From Flavobacteriales bacterium (GTDB lineage: Bacteria > Bacteroidota > Bacteroidia > Flavobacteriales_D > Crocinitomicaceae), in the NCBI GenBank assembly GCA_022361195.1, contig JAKSBJ010000172.1:1-64000 (forward strand): DNA of 64,000 bases. Direction: 5' to 3'. This document shows, in pieces, positions 20,473 through 63,917 of the stretch (positions are counted from its first letter, which is position 1; every line of letters begins with the position of its first letter). A program made the position numbers and the translations under genes. The notes beneath the pieces were generated by a model, which made no database searches, had not been told where the DNA came from, and saw only the letters and a list, made by a program, of their open reading frames with translations.

Positions 20473-23400
20473 TTAATGCTGAACAATCAATTTTTTATCG
20501 AAGCAATCCAATTCGTTAGAAAGACGTAGAATATAAACTCCCGAACTTAAAGTTGAAGGTAAACCCAAGGGAATGGTATTTTGGATTGATAAAAATTGTT
20601 TTTCAAATACTATGCGTCCTCTTTCATCAATAATTTCAATTTTTAACGGTTGCTGATAAGCATCTCCAAACCTTAATTCAATTTGATCTTGAGCGGGATT
20701 TGGATAAATGACGAACTCGTTTTCTAACTCATCCAAACCAATTGAGGCTGTTACTAAAACTGAAGACCATAAAGTATCATTTGGACAAGTTCCGTTTATA
20801 GCAACCAGCATAATTTCATAAGTCCCTTCAGCTTCGTACTCATGCCAGGGATCAGAATCGGTTGAGGTGGTTCCATCACCAAAATCCCATAAATAACCGT
20901 CAGCATTAAGGCTATTGTTGGTAAAGGTTAAAGATGGATCAGAAAGCGGAATGATGCTTTCACTTTGCTCAAAATCTGCAACAGGAGCTGGATCAACCTC
21001 CACATTAATAGTTTGAACATCAGTATCTGTTCCACCAGGCCCGGTAGCAACTAATGTTATTTCATAAGTTCCAGAACTTGGAAAAGTAAAATAAGGATTC
21101 ACTGCCTCTGAACTTTCAGGAATTGCCCCGGGCACTGACCATGCATATGTCACAGCATCAGTGCTTGAGTTCTCTAACTGAATAGAATCTGAATCACAAA
21201 TAAAGGTTCCGTATACACTAAATTCAGCTATCGGAGGATCAGTTGGAGTAACTAATGTTTGTCCATCAGAAACCATGATATCCGAATTCAAGCCAGCTCC
21301 ATTTTCAGCAAAAACTGAAATGTAATAAGTCGTTCCATAGGTCAACTCCAATCCTGTATGAGTAACATTCGTCTCAAACCAATTATCTGTCCAATCAACT
21401 ACATCCGTGGCCTCGGGAGTAGTTCCTATGGCATACCAATAACGTGCTATATCTGAATGTGGATCAACTGTCTCATCCCAATTGGCCGAAAGTTCGGTAT
21501 TGGTCCCGGTAGTGGAAATATCTGCTCCTTCTCCATCGTAAACATACGACACAACAGCAGGTGGAGTCCAATCAACATTCACAAACTCGGAGGAAATTGA
21601 TGAAACATTGGCCGAACTATCAATGGCAATAGACTTTACTTTTCCTGATGGAATTATTGGACTTTGATTTTGATATCGAATCATGGCCAAAGGTCCAATG
21701 GTAACTGTCTCTGAAAGCGAACGATTACGATATATTTTTAAATTGTTGAGTTCGAAATTAGAATTCCCTGAACGCAGCGAAATTGAATTCCCCGTTAAGT
21801 GTGGATCAGGATCAGTCCAGGAAGCGACATACTCATTATTTACCCATACTTGAATACTTCCTTCATCTTTATCAAAAACTGTTTTGATATCATACCACTG
21901 ATCATCATTGATAGTATGAGAAACATCCGCCTCTAAAGAAAAAACATCATCCACTACTTTATAAATCTGCACTTTATTATCATCGGATCGGAACCAAACG
22001 AAATAAGAATTTCCTCGATTTGGTAGTGTTGGATCATCACACATAAAATGGAAACCTCCTCTTTTATTTGTACCACTTCCGTCTATGGACATTCCCCAGT
22101 GATAGAGATAAGCATCATAGTCATCCTGATTGACAAGAGCATGTAAATTCGTATTTCCGTTAGCTTCGTCACTTTGAACTAAAACCTCTGATGCTATACC
22201 CCAACTTCCCGTCTCCGAAGTCCAATCAGGGTGAATCGCGAAATCAAAATTATCGGAGAAAAAACCTTCATCAGAATTAGCTCTCCATTCCAGTCCATCA
22301 AAATCAATCACCTGAACAAAACGGTGCTTAACTCCGGTTCCATCAATATCATCTGTATCGGTAAAGTTGGCGGAAAAGTCATCTGTTATCCACTCTCCTG
22401 AATAAAAGACATCTGTTACTGGAGGTATAACATCTCCTGGAGCAGGTCCCGTGGTACTTGACCATTGAACTTCCCATCCGGCATCTGTTGTGGCACAATC
22501 TGAACGGAATTCTAATAAAATGCTTCCTCCGGTTGAACTAATAGTAGTTGGAATATCCGTTCCCGTAAAAGCACCAATCAAAGGGTCAGACAAAGAAGCT
22601 CCATCATAAATTCGTAAATAATCCCAATCTTCTTCCAATGCAAATGACAAAATGTCTAAAGTGATATTTACCGCCGAGGTGGGTTGAATCAAATATAAAA
22701 AACGCTCATCATCTTCATAATCTGCGCCTGCTCCCCCAGAATCAAAAAGGGAACCAGAACTGGCCGTATAGGTTGTAATATCTGGATCATCATTCAGCAA
22801 TTGGTAATAGTATTCCCAATTCCAATTAATTCCCGGATCGGTATGTGTTCCTCCTGGAAAATGCTGATGCCCTTTAATTCTCACACAAGCCCCTAATACA
22901 TTTACGCCAGCCGTTGCAGGACCTTGAAAGGTTCTCAAGGGATTAATTCCATATCCACTCTCCGTAATATCTCTCACCAAATCAGCTGAAGAAGTATACA
23001 TTTCATTGGTATACCACGCTGCATCATCAACATATCCCTCGTGCTCAATTCCAATGGTATAAGGATTTTCAGATCCCACATGCCATCCTTTGTCCTCTTC
23101 TAACAACATTTGAGTTACTTGCCCATCAGATGACCGAACAACATAATGGTAAGAAACATTAGCATCACAGTTTGTTGCCCAGGAAATAGCTCCTGAATAG
23201 CTTCCTTGAATGGTGTGAATAGTCACTGCCGAAATAGCTGTACCAGAACGAGAACTATAATTACAGCTAGGAGTAGCCACCCACAATGCCGGACCATATT
23301 CATCGGTTCTATCTTCAAAAAGGTCACCCGATTCGGTTGAAACTCCTTCCTCCTGAACCACTATTTTATCCGAAGATAAGATCGCCAGATTTTCAGCACC

Positions 23401-23973
23401 ATAAATTGCTTCCAGGTCAATATCAGGGTCGTCAAAGAGATAGGTACTTTGAAAAGAGGCCTTATTCATCCACCTGAAAACCTCATAAGTGAAACTACAA
23501 ACTGCAAAATAATTTGTCGGATTACCATCCAATGGAATCTCTGATAAACTCATTAGAACGTATTCATGTGTTTTCCAATTCTCGACATCCAAACCAGATG
23601 TTTCTAACACATGCGAATAAGCTGCAGCATAGGCCATAATGTTTTGAGCCGCACTTGTTTTAATATCGTGAATACTGATTCCCGAGATCTCTGCCGAAAA
23701 AGCCAAATTGTCCTTAAAAAATCCTTGCCCATCTTCTGTCAACCCCATAACCCCTTTCACCTGTGGAATTCCAGTACAACTTTGATTGTTTCCGCTAATA
23801 TGTGTCATACGACTTTGCGTTTGAGCAACAGCTTCTAACAAACCTTGAGGAATGTTTGGATAAGCGGTATATGCAGCACTAAACTCCTCATAATATTTGG
23901 GTTGAATAAAGGAAATTGCTAAAGCGGATACACCTAAATGGATTGAGATTAGAAGAAGTAAAATCTTACGCAT
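20473..23973 (-). CDS. Multidomain T9SS-secreted N-acetylmuramoyl-L-alanine amidase
   Basis: 1166 residues with signal peptide. Residues about 38-135 resemble a lytic-transglycosylase fold (PQGLLEAVAQTQSRM, VKGVMGLTEDG, AAQNIMAYAAAYSHV). Amidase_2 spans about 245-395, with probable zinc ligands His254 (VTIHTIQG), His370 (KGHQHFPGG) and Asp380 (HTDPG). A CUB-like domain (about 405-505), a laminin-G-like domain (about 560-745), a fibronectin-like domain (about 805-900), two PKD domains (about 910-1075) and a T9SS type A tail (FVIYPNPAQDQIEL ... GVYILRL) follow. It should cleave the amide bond between MurNAc and the stem peptide outside the cell or at the surface. Confidence 0.9.
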   Translation of the reverse strand: MRKILLLLISIHLGVSALAISFIQPKYYEEFSAAYTAYPNIPQGLLEAVAQTQSRMTHISGNNQSCTGIPQVKGVMGLTEDGQGFFKDNLAFSAEISGISIHDIKTSAAQNIMAYAAAYSHVLETSGLDVENWKTHEYVLMSLSEIPLDGNPTNYFAVCSFTYEVFRWMNKASFQSTYLFDDPDIDLEAIYGAENLAILSSDKIVVQEEGVSTESGDLFEDRTDEYGPALWVATPSCNYSSRSGTAISAVTIHTIQGSYSGAISWATNCDANVSYHYVVRSSDGQVTQMLLEEDKGWHVGSENPYTIGIEHEGYVDDAAWYTNEMYTSSADLVRDITESGYGINPLRTFQGPATAGVNVLGACVRIKGHQHFPGGTHTDPGINWNWEYYYQLLNDDPDITTYTASSGSLFDSGGAGADYEDDERFLYLIQPTSAVNITLDILSFALEEDWDYLRIYDGASLSDPLIGAFTGTDIPTTISSTGGSILLEFRSDCATTDAGWEVQWSSTTGPAPGDVIPPVTDVFYSGEWITDDFSANFTDTDDIDGTGVKHRFVQVIDFDGLEWRANSDEGFFSDNFDFAIHPDWTSETGSWGIASEVLVQSDEANGNTNLHALVNQDDYDAYLYHWGMSIDGSGTNKRGGFHFMCDDPTLPNRGNSYFVWFRSDDNKVQIYKVVDDVFSLEADVSHTINDDQWYDIKTVFDKDEGSIQVWVNNEYVASWTDPDPHLTGNSISLRSGNSNFELNNLKIYRNRSLSETVTIGPLAMIRYQNQSPIIPSGKVKSIAIDSSANVSSISSEFVNVDWTPPAVVSYVYDGEGADISTTGTNTELSANWDETVDPHSDIARYWYAIGTTPEATDVVDWTDNWFETNVTHTGLELTYGTTYYISVFAENGAGLNSDIMVSDGQTLVTPTDPPIAEFSVYGTFICDSDSIQLENSSTDAVTYAWSVPGAIPESSEAVNPYFTFPSSGTYEITLVATGPGGTDTDVQTINVEVDPAPVADFEQSESIIPLSDPSLTFTNNSLNADGYLWDFGDGTTSTDSDPWHEYEAEGTYEIMLVAINGTCPNDTLWSSVLVTASIGLDELENEFVIYPNPAQDQIELRFGDAYQQPLKIEIIDERGRIVFEKQFLSIQNTIPLGLPSTLSSGVYILRLSNELDCFDKKLIVQH

Positions 23974-37270: not shown

Positions 37271-38863
37271 TTATTTAAGAACAAGCTTGTGGACATATTC
37301 CTGATCCGATTTTTTAATCTTGATCATGTAAACGCCACGCTCATAAGAGGTCAAGTCAAACTCAGCTTTATCATTCGCAAAAGCCTGTTCAATGAATCGT
37401 CCTCTTAAATCCATAATAGAAACTTCAAAATATCCAGTTGTTTCAATTTGGAAATAACCTGTCGTTGGATTTGGATAGATGTTCATGTCATCTGCCAATT
37501 CACCAATTCCAACCTGTGATCCTAATTGGAAAGTCATTTGTTTTGAACATCCCATTGAATCAGTGACTGTAACAGTATATTCACCTGGTGTTAAACCATC
37601 GATATCCTCTGTCGTTTCTCCTCCCGGAGACCATAGGAAAGTGTACCCTCCACTACCTGGAGTTCCTCCCGTTACGGTAATGTCAATTGAACCTCCCGAA
37701 ACTCCATCGTCCGGAATCATTGTTCCTGTAATTTCAATATCAGTAGGCTCTGTAATGGTAACTGAAGTAGTTCCCGTACACCCTAAATCGTCTGTAACAA
37801 TAACAGTATAGGTTCCGGCAGTTAAACCAGTAGCAGTATCGGTTGTTTGCATTCCTGGATCATCCCAAATGTAAGAATAAGGAGCAGTTCCACTTCCTGG
37901 AATAGCTACACCTTCACCATCGTGGTGGCCAAAGCAACTTACGTTTGTAAAGGCTGAGTCTACCACTAAATCTGGTAATACTTCAATGTCCATTGTCATT
38001 ACGTCTGTACATCCAGATGCATCTGTAATTGTTAAAGTAGTTGTCCATGTTCCGGACTCTGTCCATGAATAAGATGGGTTTTGATCTGTTGACGTTCCAC
38101 CATCTCCAAAATCCCAATCCCAAGCAGTAATATTGTTTAAGCTTGAAGTTGAAGCATCTGTAAAAGTTACAGGAACTCCAGGACAAACAGTAGTCAAATC
38201 AGCAGAAAAATCAGCATCACGAGTCATACAAACTCTTTGAGTATTCCATGCTCCACCAGTTGCTGCTGTAAAACCAAAGTAAACATTTGGATCTGAACCA
38301 AAGTGAGAAGTGATTAAATCTCCAACATAAGTCATCTCTAGTGTTCCGTCAATAAATACAGCTAATGCCGTTGTTCCCGGGTCCCAGATAATTTGCATTG
38401 TATGATACATATCATCTTCCATTTCAGGTAAAGCTGAAGCGGCAACCAATGCGTGATTGTTCATTCCATTTTCGTTCATACCAATATGATCGGAAGCAAT
38501 ATCTCCTGGTGCAGAAGGACCACTATTCCAGGTATCAATCTCAATTCCAATTGAATTGGTGATTCCTGCATAACCAAGTCCATTTCCAACAGGACCAACT
38601 CCTGTTCCTAACTCTTGCATTACGAACATCATACCATCAGCACCACCAGGAAAAGATCCCAGGTAAATGTCGAAAGTCATGTCAAATGGAACGGATAAAT
38701 CTATTTCTTCAGGACTCCAAATTGCTCCTGCATCATTTGTAGAAGAAGTTAACTCATAACAGTCACATCCTCCCGGAACAATAAAAGCGGTGCCTTGTGT
38801 AGTCATTTGAGACCAGCCATGAAGACCTAAAAGAATCCCCAATGCTGCAATAGCTCTTTTCAT
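37271..38863 (-). CDS. T9SS-secreted lectin-like adhesin with PKD and SprB-type repeats
   Basis: 530 residues with signal peptide. Residues about 20-215 resemble L-type lectin (legume-lectin) domains (WSPEEIDLSVPFDMTFDIYL, GADGMMFVMQ, IGIEIDTWNS). A PKD domain (about 225-300: AWDWDFGDGGTSTDQNPSY) follows, then two SprB-like repeats (about 305-445: APYSYIWDDPG, TAGTYTVIVTDDLGCTGT, PGEYTVTVTDSMGC). A T9SS type A tail ends the protein (IYPNPTTGYFQIE ... GVYMIKI). It should be exported by T9SS and attached to the surface, perhaps as an adhesin binding sugars. Monocistronic with a strong terminator. Confidence 0.9.
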   Translation of the reverse strand: MKRAIAALGILLGLHGWSQMTTQGTAFIVPGGCDCYELTSSTNDAGAIWSPEEIDLSVPFDMTFDIYLGSFPGGADGMMFVMQELGTGVGPVGNGLGYAGITNSIGIEIDTWNSGPSAPGDIASDHIGMNENGMNNHALVAASALPEMEDDMYHTMQIIWDPGTTALAVFIDGTLEMTYVGDLITSHFGSDPNVYFGFTAATGGAWNTQRVCMTRDADFSADLTTVCPGVPVTFTDASTSSLNNITAWDWDFGDGGTSTDQNPSYSWTESGTWTTTLTITDASGCTDVMTMDIEVLPDLVVDSAFTNVSCFGHHDGEGVAIPGSGTAPYSYIWDDPGMQTTDTATGLTAGTYTVIVTDDLGCTGTTSVTITEPTDIEITGTMIPDDGVSGGSIDITVTGGTPGSGGYTFLWSPGGETTEDIDGLTPGEYTVTVTDSMGCSKQMTFQLGSQVGIGELADDMNIYPNPTTGYFQIETTGYFEVSIMDLRGRFIEQAFANDKAEFDLTSYERGVYMIKIKKSDQEYVHKLVLK

Positions 38864-48927: not shown

Positions 48928-51276
48928 TTGAAATTTGGTTTATCTATATTATCCTTAGTCTGTTCCGGAATGTTATTGGCTCAGCCCAATAAAGAAAAAC
49001 TCCGTGAAGCTTTAAAAGATGCCAATTTCAATCAAAAATTTGAAGTTGGTGTTAATCTAATGCACGATCGGGTTTATTCCGAAGCTTTATATGTTTGGGA
49101 ATTGTTGTTGGAAGAAGATCCTAACAATGCCAACCTAAACTATAAAGCAGGACTTTGTAAAATCAGGCTCAATAAGGAAAACGAATCACTCCCTTATTTT
49201 GAAAAGGCACAACACGCAGTTTCAAAAAATTACAATCCCTTTGCTCCAACCGAGCGACACGCTCCTCCTGAGTTATTGTACTATCTGGCTCAATCAAGTC
49301 ATGTTCATGGAATGATTGACACAGCCTTGTATCAATACAATTTCTTCTTAGAGAATGTAAAACATAGACATGCAAAATACGACTTGGCCGCTTTAGGTAA
49401 AATACAATGCGAAAATGCATTGCGTCTTATGGCCAATCCAAAAAATTATAAAATTCACAACATAGGGGACATTGTTAATACCCCGGCACCAGAATACTCT
49501 CCAGTTATTACCATTGACGGATCTGCCTTGTTCTTCACCTCAAAAAGATTAAGACCCGACAGTACCAACAAACGATACATCAATATCGAAAATGGGCAAT
49601 ACTATGAAGATATCTATGTGAGTTACCGTAGCAAGGACGGGGATTGGGCAGATCCGGAATATTTGCGTTTTTGCAGTGTTCGTCAGAACAATGCCTCCAT
49701 TTCAGCTTCACCTGATGGACAAAAAGTTTTGGTTTATGAAGATGTTCAAAACGGTGACATTTACTATTCAGTAATGGAAGATACTGCTTTTGGTGATCTT
49801 CAACCTTTTCCAATTGAGGAACTCAATACCAATCATTTTGAACCACACGCTACTGTAAGTCCGGATGAGAATTACATTTACTTTTCATCTGACCGACCGG
49901 GAGGAATGGGAGGTTTAGATATCTACCGATTAAAAAAATTACCAGACGGAAGTTGGAGTAAAGCCTACAATTTAGGACCACCAATCAACTCCAAGTATGA
50001 TGAAGACTCACCATTTCTAGGAGCTGATAATAGAACGCTTTACTTCAGCTCAAACGGAAAAAGATCCATGGGAGGGTATGACATTTTTGTTAGTAGAGCT
50101 GATGAAGATGAAAAGTGGTCGGAGCCTGAAAACATGGGTTATCCGCTCAACTCTGTTGATGACGACATTTATTATACTACAACAGCCGACGGTTTAGTCG
50201 GTTTTTATGCTTCCGATAAGCTGGAAGGAAAGGGTGATAAGGACATTTATATTGTTGAGACAGAAGCTTCTTACATTCGAAACGTAGCTATTTTCACAGG
50301 ATTCATTGTTACAGCTGATCATTCCATGATTCCAAACGGGATCAACATCTTTGTCACTGACCTAACTGATAAATCAAAACCAAAACAATACAGTCCCCGA
50401 AGACGTGACGGTGGATATGTTTTAACACTAAAACCTTGTCACACTTACGAAATTGACTATCAATTTGAGGGAGAATCTTTCTACCACACCAAACTCTACG
50501 TTCCATGTAATTCTTCTTATCAGGAAATTAAACATGAGTTGCTTTTGGATATGGTGAATTTAGAAGCTTCGGTATTAATTGACAATTTACCTATTGCTCA
50601 TAAACGATGGGAGTTTGAAAACACAGAGCAATTTGATCAACTGGAAGGAAAGCAGGTTAAAATTTATGAAGGTGACCAATTAATGACAGAAGAGTTCATT
50701 AATCGCTATGGTCAATTCCCATATAAAGAACTTGATCCCAATAAGACTCACCTCATGAAAATTGAGGAGCAAGACTTCGACTTCTGCGAAAAGCTTGTTT
50801 TAAATCTAATTGACAGTGCTAACAATGTATTGGACACTTATACTTTCAATTCAGAATGTAATTCCAATCCTACTGTTAGTGAATTCTCAACCATACTCAC
50901 CACTCCTATTTTCCAATACAACTTTGGATATAACAAAGAAGAATTCAATACTAAAAATGAAGACTTAAAGGAATATGTACGAGGAGTAAAACAATTGTTA
51001 GATGCTGGTAAAGATGTCACCATCTATGTAACAGCCAGTGCCTCTAAGGTTCCAACCAAAAAATTTAAAAACAACTCCGATCTCGCAAAAAAAAGATTGG
51101 AGACCGGAAAAACAATCATGACTAAACTGCTAAAATCTAATCGTATTGACATGTCACGTGTCACATTTGTAGACGATGAGATTTTGGTTGGAGGTCCGGA
51201 TTATAATAACGATGCCGTCGAAAATGCTCAGGTTTACGAGCGGTATCAATTCATCAAATTCGAAGTGAGATTTTAA
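48928..51276 (+). CDS. TPR-PD40 protein with degenerate OmpA-like C-terminus (PorE-like)
   Basis: 782 residues with TTG start (48928), needed for the signal peptide MKFGLSILSLVCSGMLLA. Domain order: TPR about 30-150, PD40 propeller about 185-430 (SPDENYIYFSSDRPGGMGGLD, NRTLYFSSNGKRSMGGYDIF), a carboxypeptidase-regulatory-like domain about 440-535, and an OmpA-like end about 680-782 lacking the usual NxxLSxxRA core (NNSDLAKKRLETGKTIM is its counterpart). PorE of Porphyromonas links T9SS machinery to peptidoglycan. The loss of a good peptidoglycan-binding motif is odd. Only 2 nt separate it from the next PorE-like gene. Confidence 0.85.
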   Translation: MKFGLSILSLVCSGMLLAQPNKEKLREALKDANFNQKFEVGVNLMHDRVYSEALYVWELLLEEDPNNANLNYKAGLCKIRLNKENESLPYFEKAQHAVSKNYNPFAPTERHAPPELLYYLAQSSHVHGMIDTALYQYNFFLENVKHRHAKYDLAALGKIQCENALRLMANPKNYKIHNIGDIVNTPAPEYSPVITIDGSALFFTSKRLRPDSTNKRYINIENGQYYEDIYVSYRSKDGDWADPEYLRFCSVRQNNASISASPDGQKVLVYEDVQNGDIYYSVMEDTAFGDLQPFPIEELNTNHFEPHATVSPDENYIYFSSDRPGGMGGLDIYRLKKLPDGSWSKAYNLGPPINSKYDEDSPFLGADNRTLYFSSNGKRSMGGYDIFVSRADEDEKWSEPENMGYPLNSVDDDIYYTTTADGLVGFYASDKLEGKGDKDIYIVETEASYIRNVAIFTGFIVTADHSMIPNGINIFVTDLTDKSKPKQYSPRRRDGGYVLTLKPCHTYEIDYQFEGESFYHTKLYVPCNSSYQEIKHELLLDMVNLEASVLIDNLPIAHKRWEFENTEQFDQLEGKQVKIYEGDQLMTEEFINRYGQFPYKELDPNKTHLMKIEEQDFDFCEKLVLNLIDSANNVLDTYTFNSECNSNPTVSEFSTILTTPIFQYNFGYNKEEFNTKNEDLKEYVRGVKQLLDAGKDVTIYVTASASKVPTKKFKNNSDLAKKRLETGKTIMTKLLKSNRIDMSRVTFVDDEILVGGPDYNNDAVENAQVYERYQFIKFEVRF

Positions 51277-51278
51277 TT

Positions 51279-54227
51279 ATGAAAGCACTTGTCACATTTT
51301 TGTCCCTAATGTTAATTGGAAGTCTCTATTTCCAGGCAGAGACTGCCCATGCGCAACAATTAAAGCCGGGTAAAATCAAAAAGTTTGTTCGAAAAGGAAG
51401 AAAAGCTTATCGAAAAGGCGAATTCTGGAAAGCAAAATCGTATTACGACAAGGTAACAAATGCAAATTCAGATAAGGCTGTACATTGGTTCGAAACTGGT
51501 TTGGTCTATTACGATTCGCAAGTTCAGCGTGAAAATGCAATTATTTACTTCGAAAAAGCCCTGGAACTATCTGCACAAGAAAAGGATACAATACCTGAGA
51601 TTTTCTACTACGCTGGAAAAACCTATCACTTTAATGGAGAATATGAAAAAGCCATTGAGACCTACAATATCTTTCTGAGCAAGGTAAAAAAAGGAGACAA
51701 AGGAATGGAAACCCGTCAAGAGGTTGTTCGTCAAATTGAGATGTGTAACAATGGTATTGACTTGAGAAATCAAGAGGGATACTATGTTGAAGAGTTATTA
51801 AACCTGGGACTAAATGTTAACTCTGAATACCTGGATTATTCACCAGTTGTAACTCCAGAAGATGATCTCTTACTTTTCTGTTCAAGAAGACCTCCTGGAA
51901 GAAAAAAGAATGTAGATGGCCTTTATTACGAAGATATTTTCTACTCGGCACGAAGAGATAGCGATGGAGAATGGGGAGAAGCAGAGGTAATTGACAAATC
52001 GTCGGGTTATGTAAAGAAAGAAATCAATGACGGTAAGGCTCACGAGGCTCCAATTAGTTTATCCGCAGATGGAAATACACTTTACATCTACAAAGAAAAT
52101 GGTATTTGGAAGTCGACTAAAACAGAAACCGGTCAATGGGACATTCCGGTTAAAATGAACCAAAACGTAAACATTGGTAGTGCAAACCCAAGTATGTTCA
52201 TTACACCAAATGAAGATGAGATGTTCATTGTTTCAGTTGGAGTTAAAGATGGTTTAGGAGAAAGAGATATCTATCACGCGACAAGAAATGAATTGGGTGG
52301 ATGGAATAAGCCAGTGAACATGGGGCCGGTAATCAATACCCAATACAAAGAAGATGCTCCTTATTTGTCAAAAGATGGTAAAACACTTTATTTTGCTTCA
52401 GAGGGACATAACTCAATGGGTGGATTCGACATTTTTAAAACAATTAGAGATGAAGATGGAAACTGGTCAGAGCCTATCAATATTGGATCTCCTGTAAACT
52501 CTGCCGGAGACGATATCTACTACATTGAAAATGAAGAAGGAACTTTAGCTTACTATGCTACCATGCGTCCCGGATCATTTGGTTATCTGGATATTTATAC
52601 TGCTCGTTATGGTTGTAAAAACATTCCAACAACCAACATTAAGGGTTATGCCATTTTTGCTGAGAACAACCTACCAGTAAATGGTATTATCAAAGTAACG
52701 AATAAAGACAGTGGTGAGGAAATGGGATCATTTAATATTGATCCTAAAACTGGAAAATACAATATGGTATTACCTCCTGACAATACTTACATCCTTGAAC
52801 TGGTTGTTGCACAATCTAAATACAATCAACTACGTCCACATGCCGAAGAGTTTTATATTCCTAAACAATGTGAAGAATACAACCTCTTTCAGCAAATTAA
52901 AGTCGATTACTTAAAAGATGACATTGGTTCGGTTTACGCCCAAAGAGCTCATTTTAAAAATGCCATGTTTGACATTGACACTGAAGTTGAAAACACTTAC
53001 AATGTTGATATGAGCAAAGCTGATCAGGCTCCAGCTGAGAGTTATATTGTTGAGTTGGGATATTTTGAAGAAGAAACTTCTGCTGCTTTCAAAAAATTGA
53101 TGACTAAAAATGATGATGTTAGTATTCAATCGCAAGTTGACTTTGATGGTGGAACTGTTTATTATGCCGGGCCTTTCTCTACTGAGGGAATTGCGAATAC
53201 TCAGAAGGAAAATTTATTGGCAAAAGGATTTAAAGAATCAGCTATTAAACCTGTTCCGGGTGACAGCCCAATGTTAGATGTTTCAAGAGGAATTTCAGGA
53301 CAATTTACCCACGAAGGAAATACACCGGCCAAAGGAGTTGAAATCCTGTTATTGAATCAAAACAATCAAATTTTAAGAATTACAGAAACGGATGATCAGG
53401 GACTTTTTGCCTTTGAAAAACTTGATCCAAGCGGAAACTATGTCATTGTAGCAAATGAGGATGATGCTAAGGCAAGTATGGGATCGGGATTAGAGACAAC
53501 CATTAATGGAACTATCTACACTTTCATTAATAAGGAAAATACACCTAAGCCAAATCAGCAAGTTTACTTTGCCGATAATGGCCGTCGTATTGCCAACATT
53601 ACGGCTACCAATAGTTCAGGAAGCTTTGAATTATCTAATATCCCTGAAAAACCAGAATCTATTGCTGAGATTAATGATAATGTGACGATCTCATACAATA
53701 TGGATATTTCTAACTCAGAGGTAATTTACTCAGCTTACATCTTAAATATCGATCCAAACAACACTGAATTAGCTTATACAGAGTATATCGATATCATTGA
53801 GTTGAGAGATATTGCCATTAACGGAGGAACATCGGATGGAGAACTTCAGGAATTTGCAAACATCTTATTTGATTTTGACAAATTCTTCTTGCGTCAAAAA
53901 AGTGAAGATGTTTTAAGCAGCTTGTATGCTTTCATGAACGAAAATCCTTCGGTAACCATCCGTTTAGATGGGTACACAGATGCAATTGGTACAGAACAAT
54001 ACAATATGGGACTTTCTCAAAAACGTTCTTTATCTGCCCACAAATACTTAATTGATAAAGGAATTGATCCTAACCGAATTCAAAACTCATGGTTTGGAGA
54101 GTCTAAGCCAGTAGCTGATAACCAAACTGCTGACGGAGAAGACAATCCTGCAGGAAGACAATTAAACCGAAGAGTAGAAATCAAGGTTGAAATTCCTGAA
54201 ATGAGCGACTTATACATATCTTTGTAA
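51279..54227 (+). CDS. PorE-like protein: TPR, PD40, regulatory domains, SPOR-like and OmpA domain
   Basis: 982 residues with signal peptide ending at AHAQ. Order: TPR about 35-150 (RKAYRKGEFWKAKSYYDKV), PD40 about 175-445 (SKDGKTLYFASEGHNSMGGFD), carboxypeptidase-regulatory-like domain about 450-530, SPOR-like unit about 585-665 (SYIVELGYFEEE), further beta domains, and an OmpA domain about 860-975 (ILFDFDKFFLR, RLDGYTDAIG, NMGLSQKRS, GRQLNRRVEI). TPR-PD40-CRD-OmpA is the PorE architecture, expected in the periplasm under the outer membrane and attached to peptidoglycan. It forms an operon with the previous gene, a paralogue. Confidence 0.9.
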   Translation: MKALVTFLSLMLIGSLYFQAETAHAQQLKPGKIKKFVRKGRKAYRKGEFWKAKSYYDKVTNANSDKAVHWFETGLVYYDSQVQRENAIIYFEKALELSAQEKDTIPEIFYYAGKTYHFNGEYEKAIETYNIFLSKVKKGDKGMETRQEVVRQIEMCNNGIDLRNQEGYYVEELLNLGLNVNSEYLDYSPVVTPEDDLLLFCSRRPPGRKKNVDGLYYEDIFYSARRDSDGEWGEAEVIDKSSGYVKKEINDGKAHEAPISLSADGNTLYIYKENGIWKSTKTETGQWDIPVKMNQNVNIGSANPSMFITPNEDEMFIVSVGVKDGLGERDIYHATRNELGGWNKPVNMGPVINTQYKEDAPYLSKDGKTLYFASEGHNSMGGFDIFKTIRDEDGNWSEPINIGSPVNSAGDDIYYIENEEGTLAYYATMRPGSFGYLDIYTARYGCKNIPTTNIKGYAIFAENNLPVNGIIKVTNKDSGEEMGSFNIDPKTGKYNMVLPPDNTYILELVVAQSKYNQLRPHAEEFYIPKQCEEYNLFQQIKVDYLKDDIGSVYAQRAHFKNAMFDIDTEVENTYNVDMSKADQAPAESYIVELGYFEEETSAAFKKLMTKNDDVSIQSQVDFDGGTVYYAGPFSTEGIANTQKENLLAKGFKESAIKPVPGDSPMLDVSRGISGQFTHEGNTPAKGVEILLLNQNNQILRITETDDQGLFAFEKLDPSGNYVIVANEDDAKASMGSGLETTINGTIYTFINKENTPKPNQQVYFADNGRRIANITATNSSGSFELSNIPEKPESIAEINDNVTISYNMDISNSEVIYSAYILNIDPNNTELAYTEYIDIIELRDIAINGGTSDGELQEFANILFDFDKFFLRQKSEDVLSSLYAFMNENPSVTIRLDGYTDAIGTEQYNMGLSQKRSLSAHKYLIDKGIDPNRIQNSWFGESKPVADNQTADGEDNPAGRQLNRRVEIKVEIPEMSDLYISL

Positions 54228-55916: not shown

Positions 55917-56216
55917 ATGAAAAAGACAGTTCTTAACTTAAGAAGAATGGGATTTGTTCTTGTTGCTGCTGGTTCTATGTTAGCTTTCACTGCTTGTGGT
56001 GGTGGAGAAGAAGAAGGTGGTGAAGGAGAAAACACTGAAGCAGAAGCTGAAGGTGATCACGCTGATGCTGATGCAGAAGAAACTGACGCTCACGAATGTG
56101 ACGGTGGTGAGTGCGATGGTGGAGAGTGTGAAGGTGGTGAAGCTACTGACTCTACTGACGCTAGCGAGTGTGAAGGTGGAGAATGTGAAGGTGGAGAGTG
56201 CGAAGCTGGAGAATAA
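55917..56216 (+). CDS. Small acidic Cys-rich lipoprotein with ECxGG repeats
   Basis: 99 residues. MLAFTAC puts a lipidated Cys at residue 27, followed by GGG. The mature part is almost only Glu, Gly, Asp, Ala and Cys: an acidic segment (residues 31-58), then two triplets of a pentapeptide, ECDGG ECDGG ECEGG and ECEGG ECEGG ECEAG, with a short Thr/Ser spacer between. Six evenly spaced Cys within acidic repeats suggest metal binding, but this is speculation. No family is recognised. It has its own strong promoter and a strong terminator (56236-56265), so it is a single-gene unit. Confidence 0.8.
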   Translation: MKKTVLNLRRMGFVLVAAGSMLAFTACGGGEEEGGEGENTEAEAEGDHADADAEETDAHECDGGECDGGECEGGEATDSTDASECEGGECEGGECEAGE

Positions 56217-63237: not shown

Positions 63238-63579
63238 ATGAAAAATACATTCCTTTTTTTATTCCTTTTTGCTGGACTCAGTTTATACGGACAAGAACCA
63301 GATGCTCAACAATGTAAAGTGAGCTTTGAAAGAATTGCAGACGAAAACTGCGAAAATAATTGCGGAGATTTTCACATTGTAACGAACTGTAACACACTTC
63401 CCGAATTTAAAATTCAGGTTTATAATCGATGGGGAAATTTGGTTTTCGATTCGTATGATCCAAAGGCTATTTGGGATACCGAAGAAATGGAAGAAGGTGT
63501 TTATGTATTCCAGCTTTCATTTACCAACGAATATGGTGTTACCAGCAGTTACAAAGGAAATGTTACGGTAATAAAATGA
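63238..63579 (+). CDS. Mini secreted protein with a stand-alone CHU_C-like domain (copy 1)
   Basis: 113 residues: a signal peptide (MKNTFLFLFLFAGLSLYG) and one domain that matches the gliding-motility-associated C-terminal (CHU_C, T9SS type B sorting) pattern: EFKIQVYNRWGNLVFDSYD, IWD, EEGVYVFQLSF and GNVTVIK. The usual TPNGDGxND loop is replaced by a Cys-containing loop ENCENNC. Four Cys at 26, 38, 42 and 51 are likely paired. Full-length T9SS type B proteins carry this domain after a long cargo; here no cargo exists. The next copy overlaps by 4 bases (ATGA). Confidence 0.82.
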   Translation: MKNTFLFLFLFAGLSLYGQEPDAQQCKVSFERIADENCENNCGDFHIVTNCNTLPEFKIQVYNRWGNLVFDSYDPKAIWDTEEMEEGVYVFQLSFTNEYGVTSSYKGNVTVIK

Positions 63580-63917
63580 GGCCAATTCTTGGCTTTGTAG
63601 CTCTAATCCTTAGTTTTTCGGCTTTTTCGCAAGAAGAAGTTTCGGATAGTTGTAGTTTTTACGTTCCTGGAATCGTAACTCCAGATTGTGATGGAGATTG
63701 CAGTAGTTTTCAGATCTATTCATCTTGTCCGATGTATGATTTTGAACTTAAAGTTTACAATACCTCCGAAGAGCTTGTCTTTGAATCATTCGATTCGGAT
63801 AAAAAATGGTATCCTTTAGGTAAAAATCCAGATGGTGAATACTATTGGACACTTAGATACACTGATCTTTATGGAATTACAAAAATAGAGAACGGAACGC
63901 TCGTCATACTTCATTAA
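63576..63917 (+). CDS. Mini secreted protein with a stand-alone CHU_C-like domain (copy 2)
   Basis: 113 residues from the ATG at 63576; the frame is open to 63471, but the signal peptide MRPILGFVALILSFSAFSQ begins here and the ATGA overlap supports it. The domain reads VTPDCDGDCSSF (the TPNGDG-like loop with two Cys), FELKVYNTSEELVFESFDS and PDGEYYWTLRY, a diverged version of the CHU_C pattern with RWG lost. Cys at 26, 38, 42 and 51 are in exactly the same positions as in copy 1, and the two proteins have equal length. A tandem duplication is likely. Function unknown. Confidence 0.82.
   Translation: MRPILGFVALILSFSAFSQEEVSDSCSFYVPGIVTPDCDGDCSSFQIYSSCPMYDFELKVYNTSEELVFESFDSDKKWYPLGKNPDGEYYWTLRYTDLYGITKIENGTLVILH

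Follow-up and report, generated by a model that had tools for sequence, protein, structure and literature searches.

Two small overlapping genes in the window, by which we mean the whole 64,000-nucleotide stretch that was analysed, very probably encode, as far as their anatomy is concerned, cargo-free descendants of a type B sorting domain that keep the CHU_C fold and have one loop rebuilt around two cysteines. CHU_C domains normally lie at the C-terminus of large T9SS cargo proteins and, to our knowledge, type B sorting domains have been thought of only as labels on such cargo. The genes and the parts of their products to which we refer below are as follows.

63238..63579, + strand: gene 1 (P0001), 113-aa secreted CHU_C-only protein (open reading frame; Pfam CHU_C, 2.6e-10)
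63238..63291, + strand: gene 1 signal peptide, residues 1-18, read from the sequence, ending LYG before Q19; Gln at +1 fits the Q-rule
63340..63372, + strand: gene 1 rebuilt loop DENCENNCGDF, residues 35-45, replacing TPNGDGxNDxF (alignments)
63556..63576, + strand: gene 1 last seven residues, GNVTVIK, an ending like that of type B sorting domains (tail-length comparison)
63576..63917, + strand: gene 2 (P0002), 113-aa secreted CHU_C-only protein (open reading frame; Pfam CHU_C, 3.2e-7)
63576..63629, + strand: gene 2 signal peptide, residues 1-18, read from the sequence, ending AFS before Q19; Gln at +1 fits the Q-rule
63678..63710, + strand: gene 2 rebuilt loop TPDCDGDCSSF, residues 35-45, in the same register as TPNGDGxNDxF (alignments)
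63894..63914, + strand: gene 2 C-terminal seven residues GTLVILH (tail-length comparison)

The initial annotation had described two genes of 342 bp joined by an ATGA overlap, each encoding a signal peptide and one domain with the CHU_C core, and in this it was right: each open reading frame is 342 bp long with its stop codon, the overlap is at 63576-63579, and both products score above the 27-bit cut-off of CHU_C PF13585 (40.7 bits for gene 1 and 30.8 bits for gene 2). Both signal peptides have a cleavage site that fits the Q-rule, according to which signal peptidase I of Bacteroidetes leaves glutamine at +1 (PMC5837995); amongst stand-alone homologues, which like the pair consist of a signal peptide and CHU_C alone, a glutamine following a small residue stands at the predicted site in 37 of 39. 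The mature products, of ~94 residues each, are the CHU_C domain alone up to the last residue, with no passenger. TIGR04131, the model for type B sorting domains, gives gene 1 25.2 bits, below its cut-off of 35 bits, and has no match to gene 2. The pair therefore shares with the PF13585 CHU_C/TIGR04131 domains the fold, a Pfam score above cut-off, the extreme C-terminal position, the seven-residue terminal strand and the N-terminal Sec signal peptide, but differs from the TIGR04131 type B domain in the missing passenger, the loop rebuilt with two cysteines, the score below cut-off, the loss of WDG from both proteins and the loss of NRWG from gene 2. Because they lack the passenger and the TPNGDGxND loop and fall short of the TIGR04131 cut-off, the proteins are not classed here as type B cargo.

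What has been kept of the sorting signal, and what has been lost, can be set out by comparison with cargo. The end of the sorting domain is a glycine and six further residues, the last mostly K or R. Exactly seven residues run from this glycine to the C-terminus in 64 of 71 cargo domains and in 33 of 38 stand-alone proteins, with K or R as the final residue in 24 of the 38; in both gene 1 and gene 2 the domain ends the protein and the terminal strand has exactly seven residues. The internal motifs have fared differently: of 42 stand-alone proteins, 9 have a TPNGDG-like loop, 26 have NRWG and 17 have W[DN]G, against 57, 69 and 71, respectively, of the 74 cargo domains. Gene 1 keeps NRWG, the TPNGDGxND loop and WDG being absent, and in gene 2 all three are absent. 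SprB has five conserved motifs, and a mutation in any one of them abolished either secretion or recognition by the shuttle (PMC12618676); on our own mapping, the text there not spelling the motifs out, these five would include the TPNGDG loop, NRWG and W-D-G.

These losses bear on the possibility that the two proteins are genuine, if tiny, T9SS substrates, displayed on the surface or released, and serve some purpose (adhesion or binding) unrelated to T9SS control. They carry a signal peptide and the exact C-terminus of a sorting domain, and the machinery is at hand: the genome has one SprA (2410 bits), 20 matches to the PorP/SprF family, 17 of them above cut-off, and 49 matches to TIGR04131, nearly all of which end long proteins, so that it is equipped with a T9SS translocon as well as a large repertoire of type B domains. 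No T9SS, porP/sprF or gliding gene lies next to the pair in the window. This is a weak criterion, however, since type B substrates can be orphans, with no shuttle beside them, and those of Flavobacterium johnsoniae use a single shuttle in common (PMC12618676), a fact that in itself favours the substrate explanation. The loss of the loop and WDG from both proteins and of NRWG from gene 2, the missed TIGR04131 cut-off and the want of any passenger part to do the work tell against it, and we consider it possible but on balance unlikely.

The four cysteines, at residues 26, 38, 42 and 51, are the only ones in either protein, and they are equally placed, as the initial annotation had noticed, despite an overall identity of 28%; if four cysteines were placed freely in the mature part, the chance of such a coincidence of position would be ~3e-7. 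Only one half of the set is special. Equivalents of Cys26 and Cys51 occur in ~30% of ordinary cargo CHU_C domains, nearly always as a pair: of 74 unique cargo domains, a sample drawn by likeness to the family of the pair and containing kin sequences that are not independent, 49 could be scored at these positions, and 13 had both cysteines, two had one and 34 had neither (Fisher p 4e-10). The Cys26/Cys51 pair is thus an old CHU_C feature and, judged by this co-occurrence, very likely a disulfide. Cysteines at the positions of Cys38 and Cys42, which sit within the loop whose cargo form is TPNGDGxNDxF, are found in none of the 74 cargo domains and are peculiar to the family. All of 15 four-cysteine homologues have Cys26 and Cys51; Cys38 and Cys42 are present in 14, both being serine in the remaining one (L262). 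This joint loss points to a Cys38-Cys42 bond, although some of the more distant stand-alone proteins have one loop cysteine alone, and so the pairing rule is not general to all of them. It had been proposed that a disulfide loop replaces the TPNGDG loop; the two-cysteine loop is there, and the bond across it, like every disulfide in the pair, is something that we infer.

There is also evidence from structure models. AlphaFold2 gave a mean pLDDT of 78.6 for gene 1, with the domain mostly > 80, and of 86.9 for gene 2. The gene 2 model has a sheet of four long strands (54-61, 67-71, 87-96 and 102-111), and the gene 1 model has the same strands and two extra; predicted type B domains have been described with a four-long-strand sheet, and none has a solved structure, according to PMC12618676. 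Against BFVD, a set of predicted viral proteins, the gene 2 model gave six matches with E < 0.001 (best 5.1e-8, TM 0.68-0.73), of which three are named as gliding motility-associated C-terminal (CHU_C-type) domains. The structural match to the CHU_C fold on which the earlier reading depended was thus found for gene 2; it is supportive and not fully independent, because the alignments behind the models included CHU_C sequences, the best homologues from our genome searches not being amongst them.

Comparison of the models with PDB structures gave nothing below E 0.001. The weak matches were to Ig-like domains, some of them from the T9SS, type A sorting domains included (PorZ, PorU, RemA-CTD and the RemZ and NucA complexes), and a sequence search of the PDB gave as its sole convincing relative the C-terminus of GhpA, a grappling-hook protein from Aureispira (2.2e-6). 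The generic beta-sandwich matches amongst the PDB structures are in keeping with a second explanation, in which the pair has left the T9SS altogether and become neofunctionalised Ig-like proteins of the periplasm or the extracellular space, that is, small binding scaffolds stabilized by disulfides. The loss of motifs, the fast divergence (28% identity within the pair) and the extra cysteine pairs point in the same direction; most homologues, but not the two proteins of the window, have a third pair, with one cysteine just past the signal peptide and the other in the last loop, and both are present in eight of the nine complete homologues that have either. An Ig-like scaffold would, however, have no obvious reason to preserve the exact C-terminal end and its final K/R, and we regard this explanation as distinctly unlikely.

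Searches of related genomes bore out the existence of cargo-free CHU_C proteins, already indicated by the Pfam matches, since they recovered intact small genes encoding a signal peptide and CHU_C alone. When a profile of 13 stand-alone members was run over 120 genomes of the family, short open reading frames came at the top, above nearly all cargo domains. Of 240 family genomes, 15 carry the four-cysteine form, in nine of 24 genera, a count that includes two weaker matches, in G003, with a partial set of cysteines; there was no instance outside the family among the genomes sampled, and a search of 295 genomes from the class added, at E 1e-20, just two domains within long open reading frames. 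One scan of contigs for close relatives by name returned nothing nearer than a distant CHU_C domain from a MAG of Puia. The stand-alone genes occur singly or in tandem (two in each of L072 and L073, and two in L120), and in genus g11 three to four CHU_C-only paralogues, diverged from one another, stand in tandem between ogt-like and MBOAT-like genes (L112:5867-7046, L113:5868-7357 and L114:5484-7039). For tandem paralogues across the species of genus g11, dN/dS is 0.06-0.23, with dS near or past saturation in several pairs, which argues that stand-alone CHU_C genes are selected and are not debris. The tree does not join the two genes of the window, and a recent duplication from gene 1 to gene 2 is not supported; gene 2 groups weakly with a four-cysteine protein of genus g5 (SH-aLRT 81, from ~90 columns that resolve little). 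Taken together, the cargo-free CHU_C proteins form a set that evolves fast, is limited in lineage and has often undergone tandem duplication.

The same searches deal with the suspicion that the pair is the decaying remnant of a large cargo gene that has been split. An in-frame stop is seen in a few homologues, one each in L065:5335-5682 (G003; L003/L065) and L261:545-883, where either the gene is being lost or there is a sequencing error, and this is what can be said for such a remnant. However, a start and a signal peptide are present in each of the two genes; there is purifying selection in relatives; many genera carry intact small homologues, not parts of one larger gene; and upstream there is no cargo open reading frame but a glycosyltransferase gene. 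A split gene is refuted for the window on these grounds, and we give it hardly any credence.

The window takes up the first 64 kb of a contig of 83 kb, in a genome of 5.4 Mb. Upstream of the pair, at a distance of 58 bases, is a gene for a GT4 glycosyltransferase; the downstream neighbour, after 29 bases, encodes a GNAT acetyltransferase. These flanks recur at none of the other stand-alone loci, where synteny is confined to single genera except for a set beside murA that spans three. An origin in a prophage or island was rejected, the flanks being ordinary chromosomal genes and the G+C of the pair, 0.35-0.36, lying near the 0.375 of its neighbours. The Bacteroidota promoter consensus (TTTG, 17-21 bases, TAnnTTTG) has no exact match in the whole window, and as this is fewer than chance would provide the scan is uninformative. 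Elsewhere in the window we observed a small putative lipoprotein, cysteine-rich and acidic, with CDGGEC/CEGGEC repeat units (55917-56216); two adjacent genes for long exported proteins of PorE-like appearance, with repeats and an OmpA-like C-terminal end (48928-51276 and 51279-54227); and two long T9SS cargo proteins of the other class, which bear type A sorting domains (20473-23973 and 37271-38863; TIGR04183, 38 and 52 bits). It should also be mentioned that at L068:4995-6552 a bona fide porV (NF033710, 345 bits) is followed directly, on its 3' side, by a stand-alone CHU_C gene, an adjacency to which little weight is given because the congener L119 has no such arrangement.

We return to the reading of the pair as cargo-free type B descendants and to what such proteins might do. 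The roles that the initial annotation put forward, as decoys, regulators or subunits of the T9SS or gliding machinery, are conjecture. Type B domains bind PorP/SprF barrels (PMC9143113 and PMC12618676), and the Porphyromonas gingivalis protein PG1035 has been proposed as a cap for PorP (PMC9143113). In the mechanism that we consider the likeliest, the genes descend from a sorting domain once carried by a large cargo protein of the T9SS. Sec would export each mature protein of ~94 residues; Cys38 and Cys42 would rebuild the loop, and Cys26 and Cys51 probably tie the N-terminal edge to the sheet; and the free domain would still offer the signal's C-terminal strand to outer-membrane barrels of the PorP/SprF family, which handle type B domains, acting as a freestanding ligand in the role of cap, competitor or adaptor. 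Stable, free and with its terminal strand preserved, the domain is best understood as a ligand, whether cap or competitor, for the type B machinery. The partner, the location and the effect are here what we infer. The CHU_C scores, the fold, for which the type A sorting domains amongst the weak PDB matches also speak, the homologues in many genera, the selection, the C-terminal end, the cysteine pairs and the presence of SprA and PorP/SprF proteins in the genome count in favour of the mechanism; the loss of the loop and of W-D-G from both proteins and of NRWG from gene 2, the lack of a T9SS neighbour and the pairing of Cys38 with Cys42, which is not strict in distant stand-alone proteins, count against it. 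Taken as one statement, anatomy and mechanism together are held tentatively, at somewhat less than an even chance. The patchy distribution of the four-cysteine form (15 of 240 genomes) argues that it is not a core part of the T9SS; the loop rebuilt on two cysteines and the recurrence in related genera give the proteins the look of labels that have been turned into stand-alone tools.

Three known or newly found cases are instructive by comparison. For PG1035 the proposed mode of action is likewise that of a type B domain seated on a PorP-like barrel (PMC9143113), but it runs at ~50 kDa and so has a large N-terminal part; barrel binding by the pair is our proposal. PorA of P. gingivalis, which belongs to PorXY-SigP signalling, is likewise a sorting-domain protein with a regulatory and not a cargo role (PMC7712824); it has a FimH-like N-terminal domain, of which the pair has no counterpart, and its CTD interacts with PorV. 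The third case is a second stand-alone CHU_C family, whose genes lie, in three genera, between murA and an APH-pth-rplY-prs block, the gene names having been read by eye from the sequences (L062:4938-5378, from the pair's own genome, C333, and L069, L120, L121, L123 and L126). Like the pair, they encode a signal peptide and CHU_C only, have equivalents of Cys26 and Cys51 and occur in tandem in L120; unlike the pair, most retain a TPNGD-type loop, and they occupy one chromosomal place.

CHU_C-only secreted proteins, of 107-116 aa, were also observed in four phage contigs when viral contigs were scanned with one cargo domain and DNA patterns. They are at L172:4352-4675 (148.8 kb; Pfam CHU_C 5e-14), L162:6117-6446 (98.8 kb; 2e-16), where the gene is near endolysin genes, L157:12075-12401 (39 kb; 2e-11) and L265:2486-2836, which is the 642-kb phage LR756502. 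They resemble the pair in consisting of a signal peptide and CHU_C only, and differ from it in having an intact TPNGDG-like loop and no cysteine pattern. Since it has been proposed that flavobacterial phages use components of the gliding machinery as receptors (PMC7345892), a phage-made decoy of type B shuttles is a testable idea and nothing more, and it is possible that these proteins, which fit the prediction of a decoy, jam the T9SS shuttles of the host. A more general conjecture, which we think improbable as it stands, is that cargo-free type B domains are T9SS modulators at large, the host using versions hardened by disulfides to cap or compete for PorP/SprF shuttles and the phages using versions with an intact loop to jam the same shuttles, for example so as to hide surface receptors from rival phages.

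If phages do use the same trick, the T9SS would be linked to competition between phages or between phage and host. For the bacteria themselves, the existence of label-only proteins that are selected, recurrent and provided with a loop rebuilt on cysteines carries the implication that a label can have a function in its own right, and such proteins offer natural variants with which to ask which parts of the signal are read by the translocon and by the PorP/SprF shuttles.
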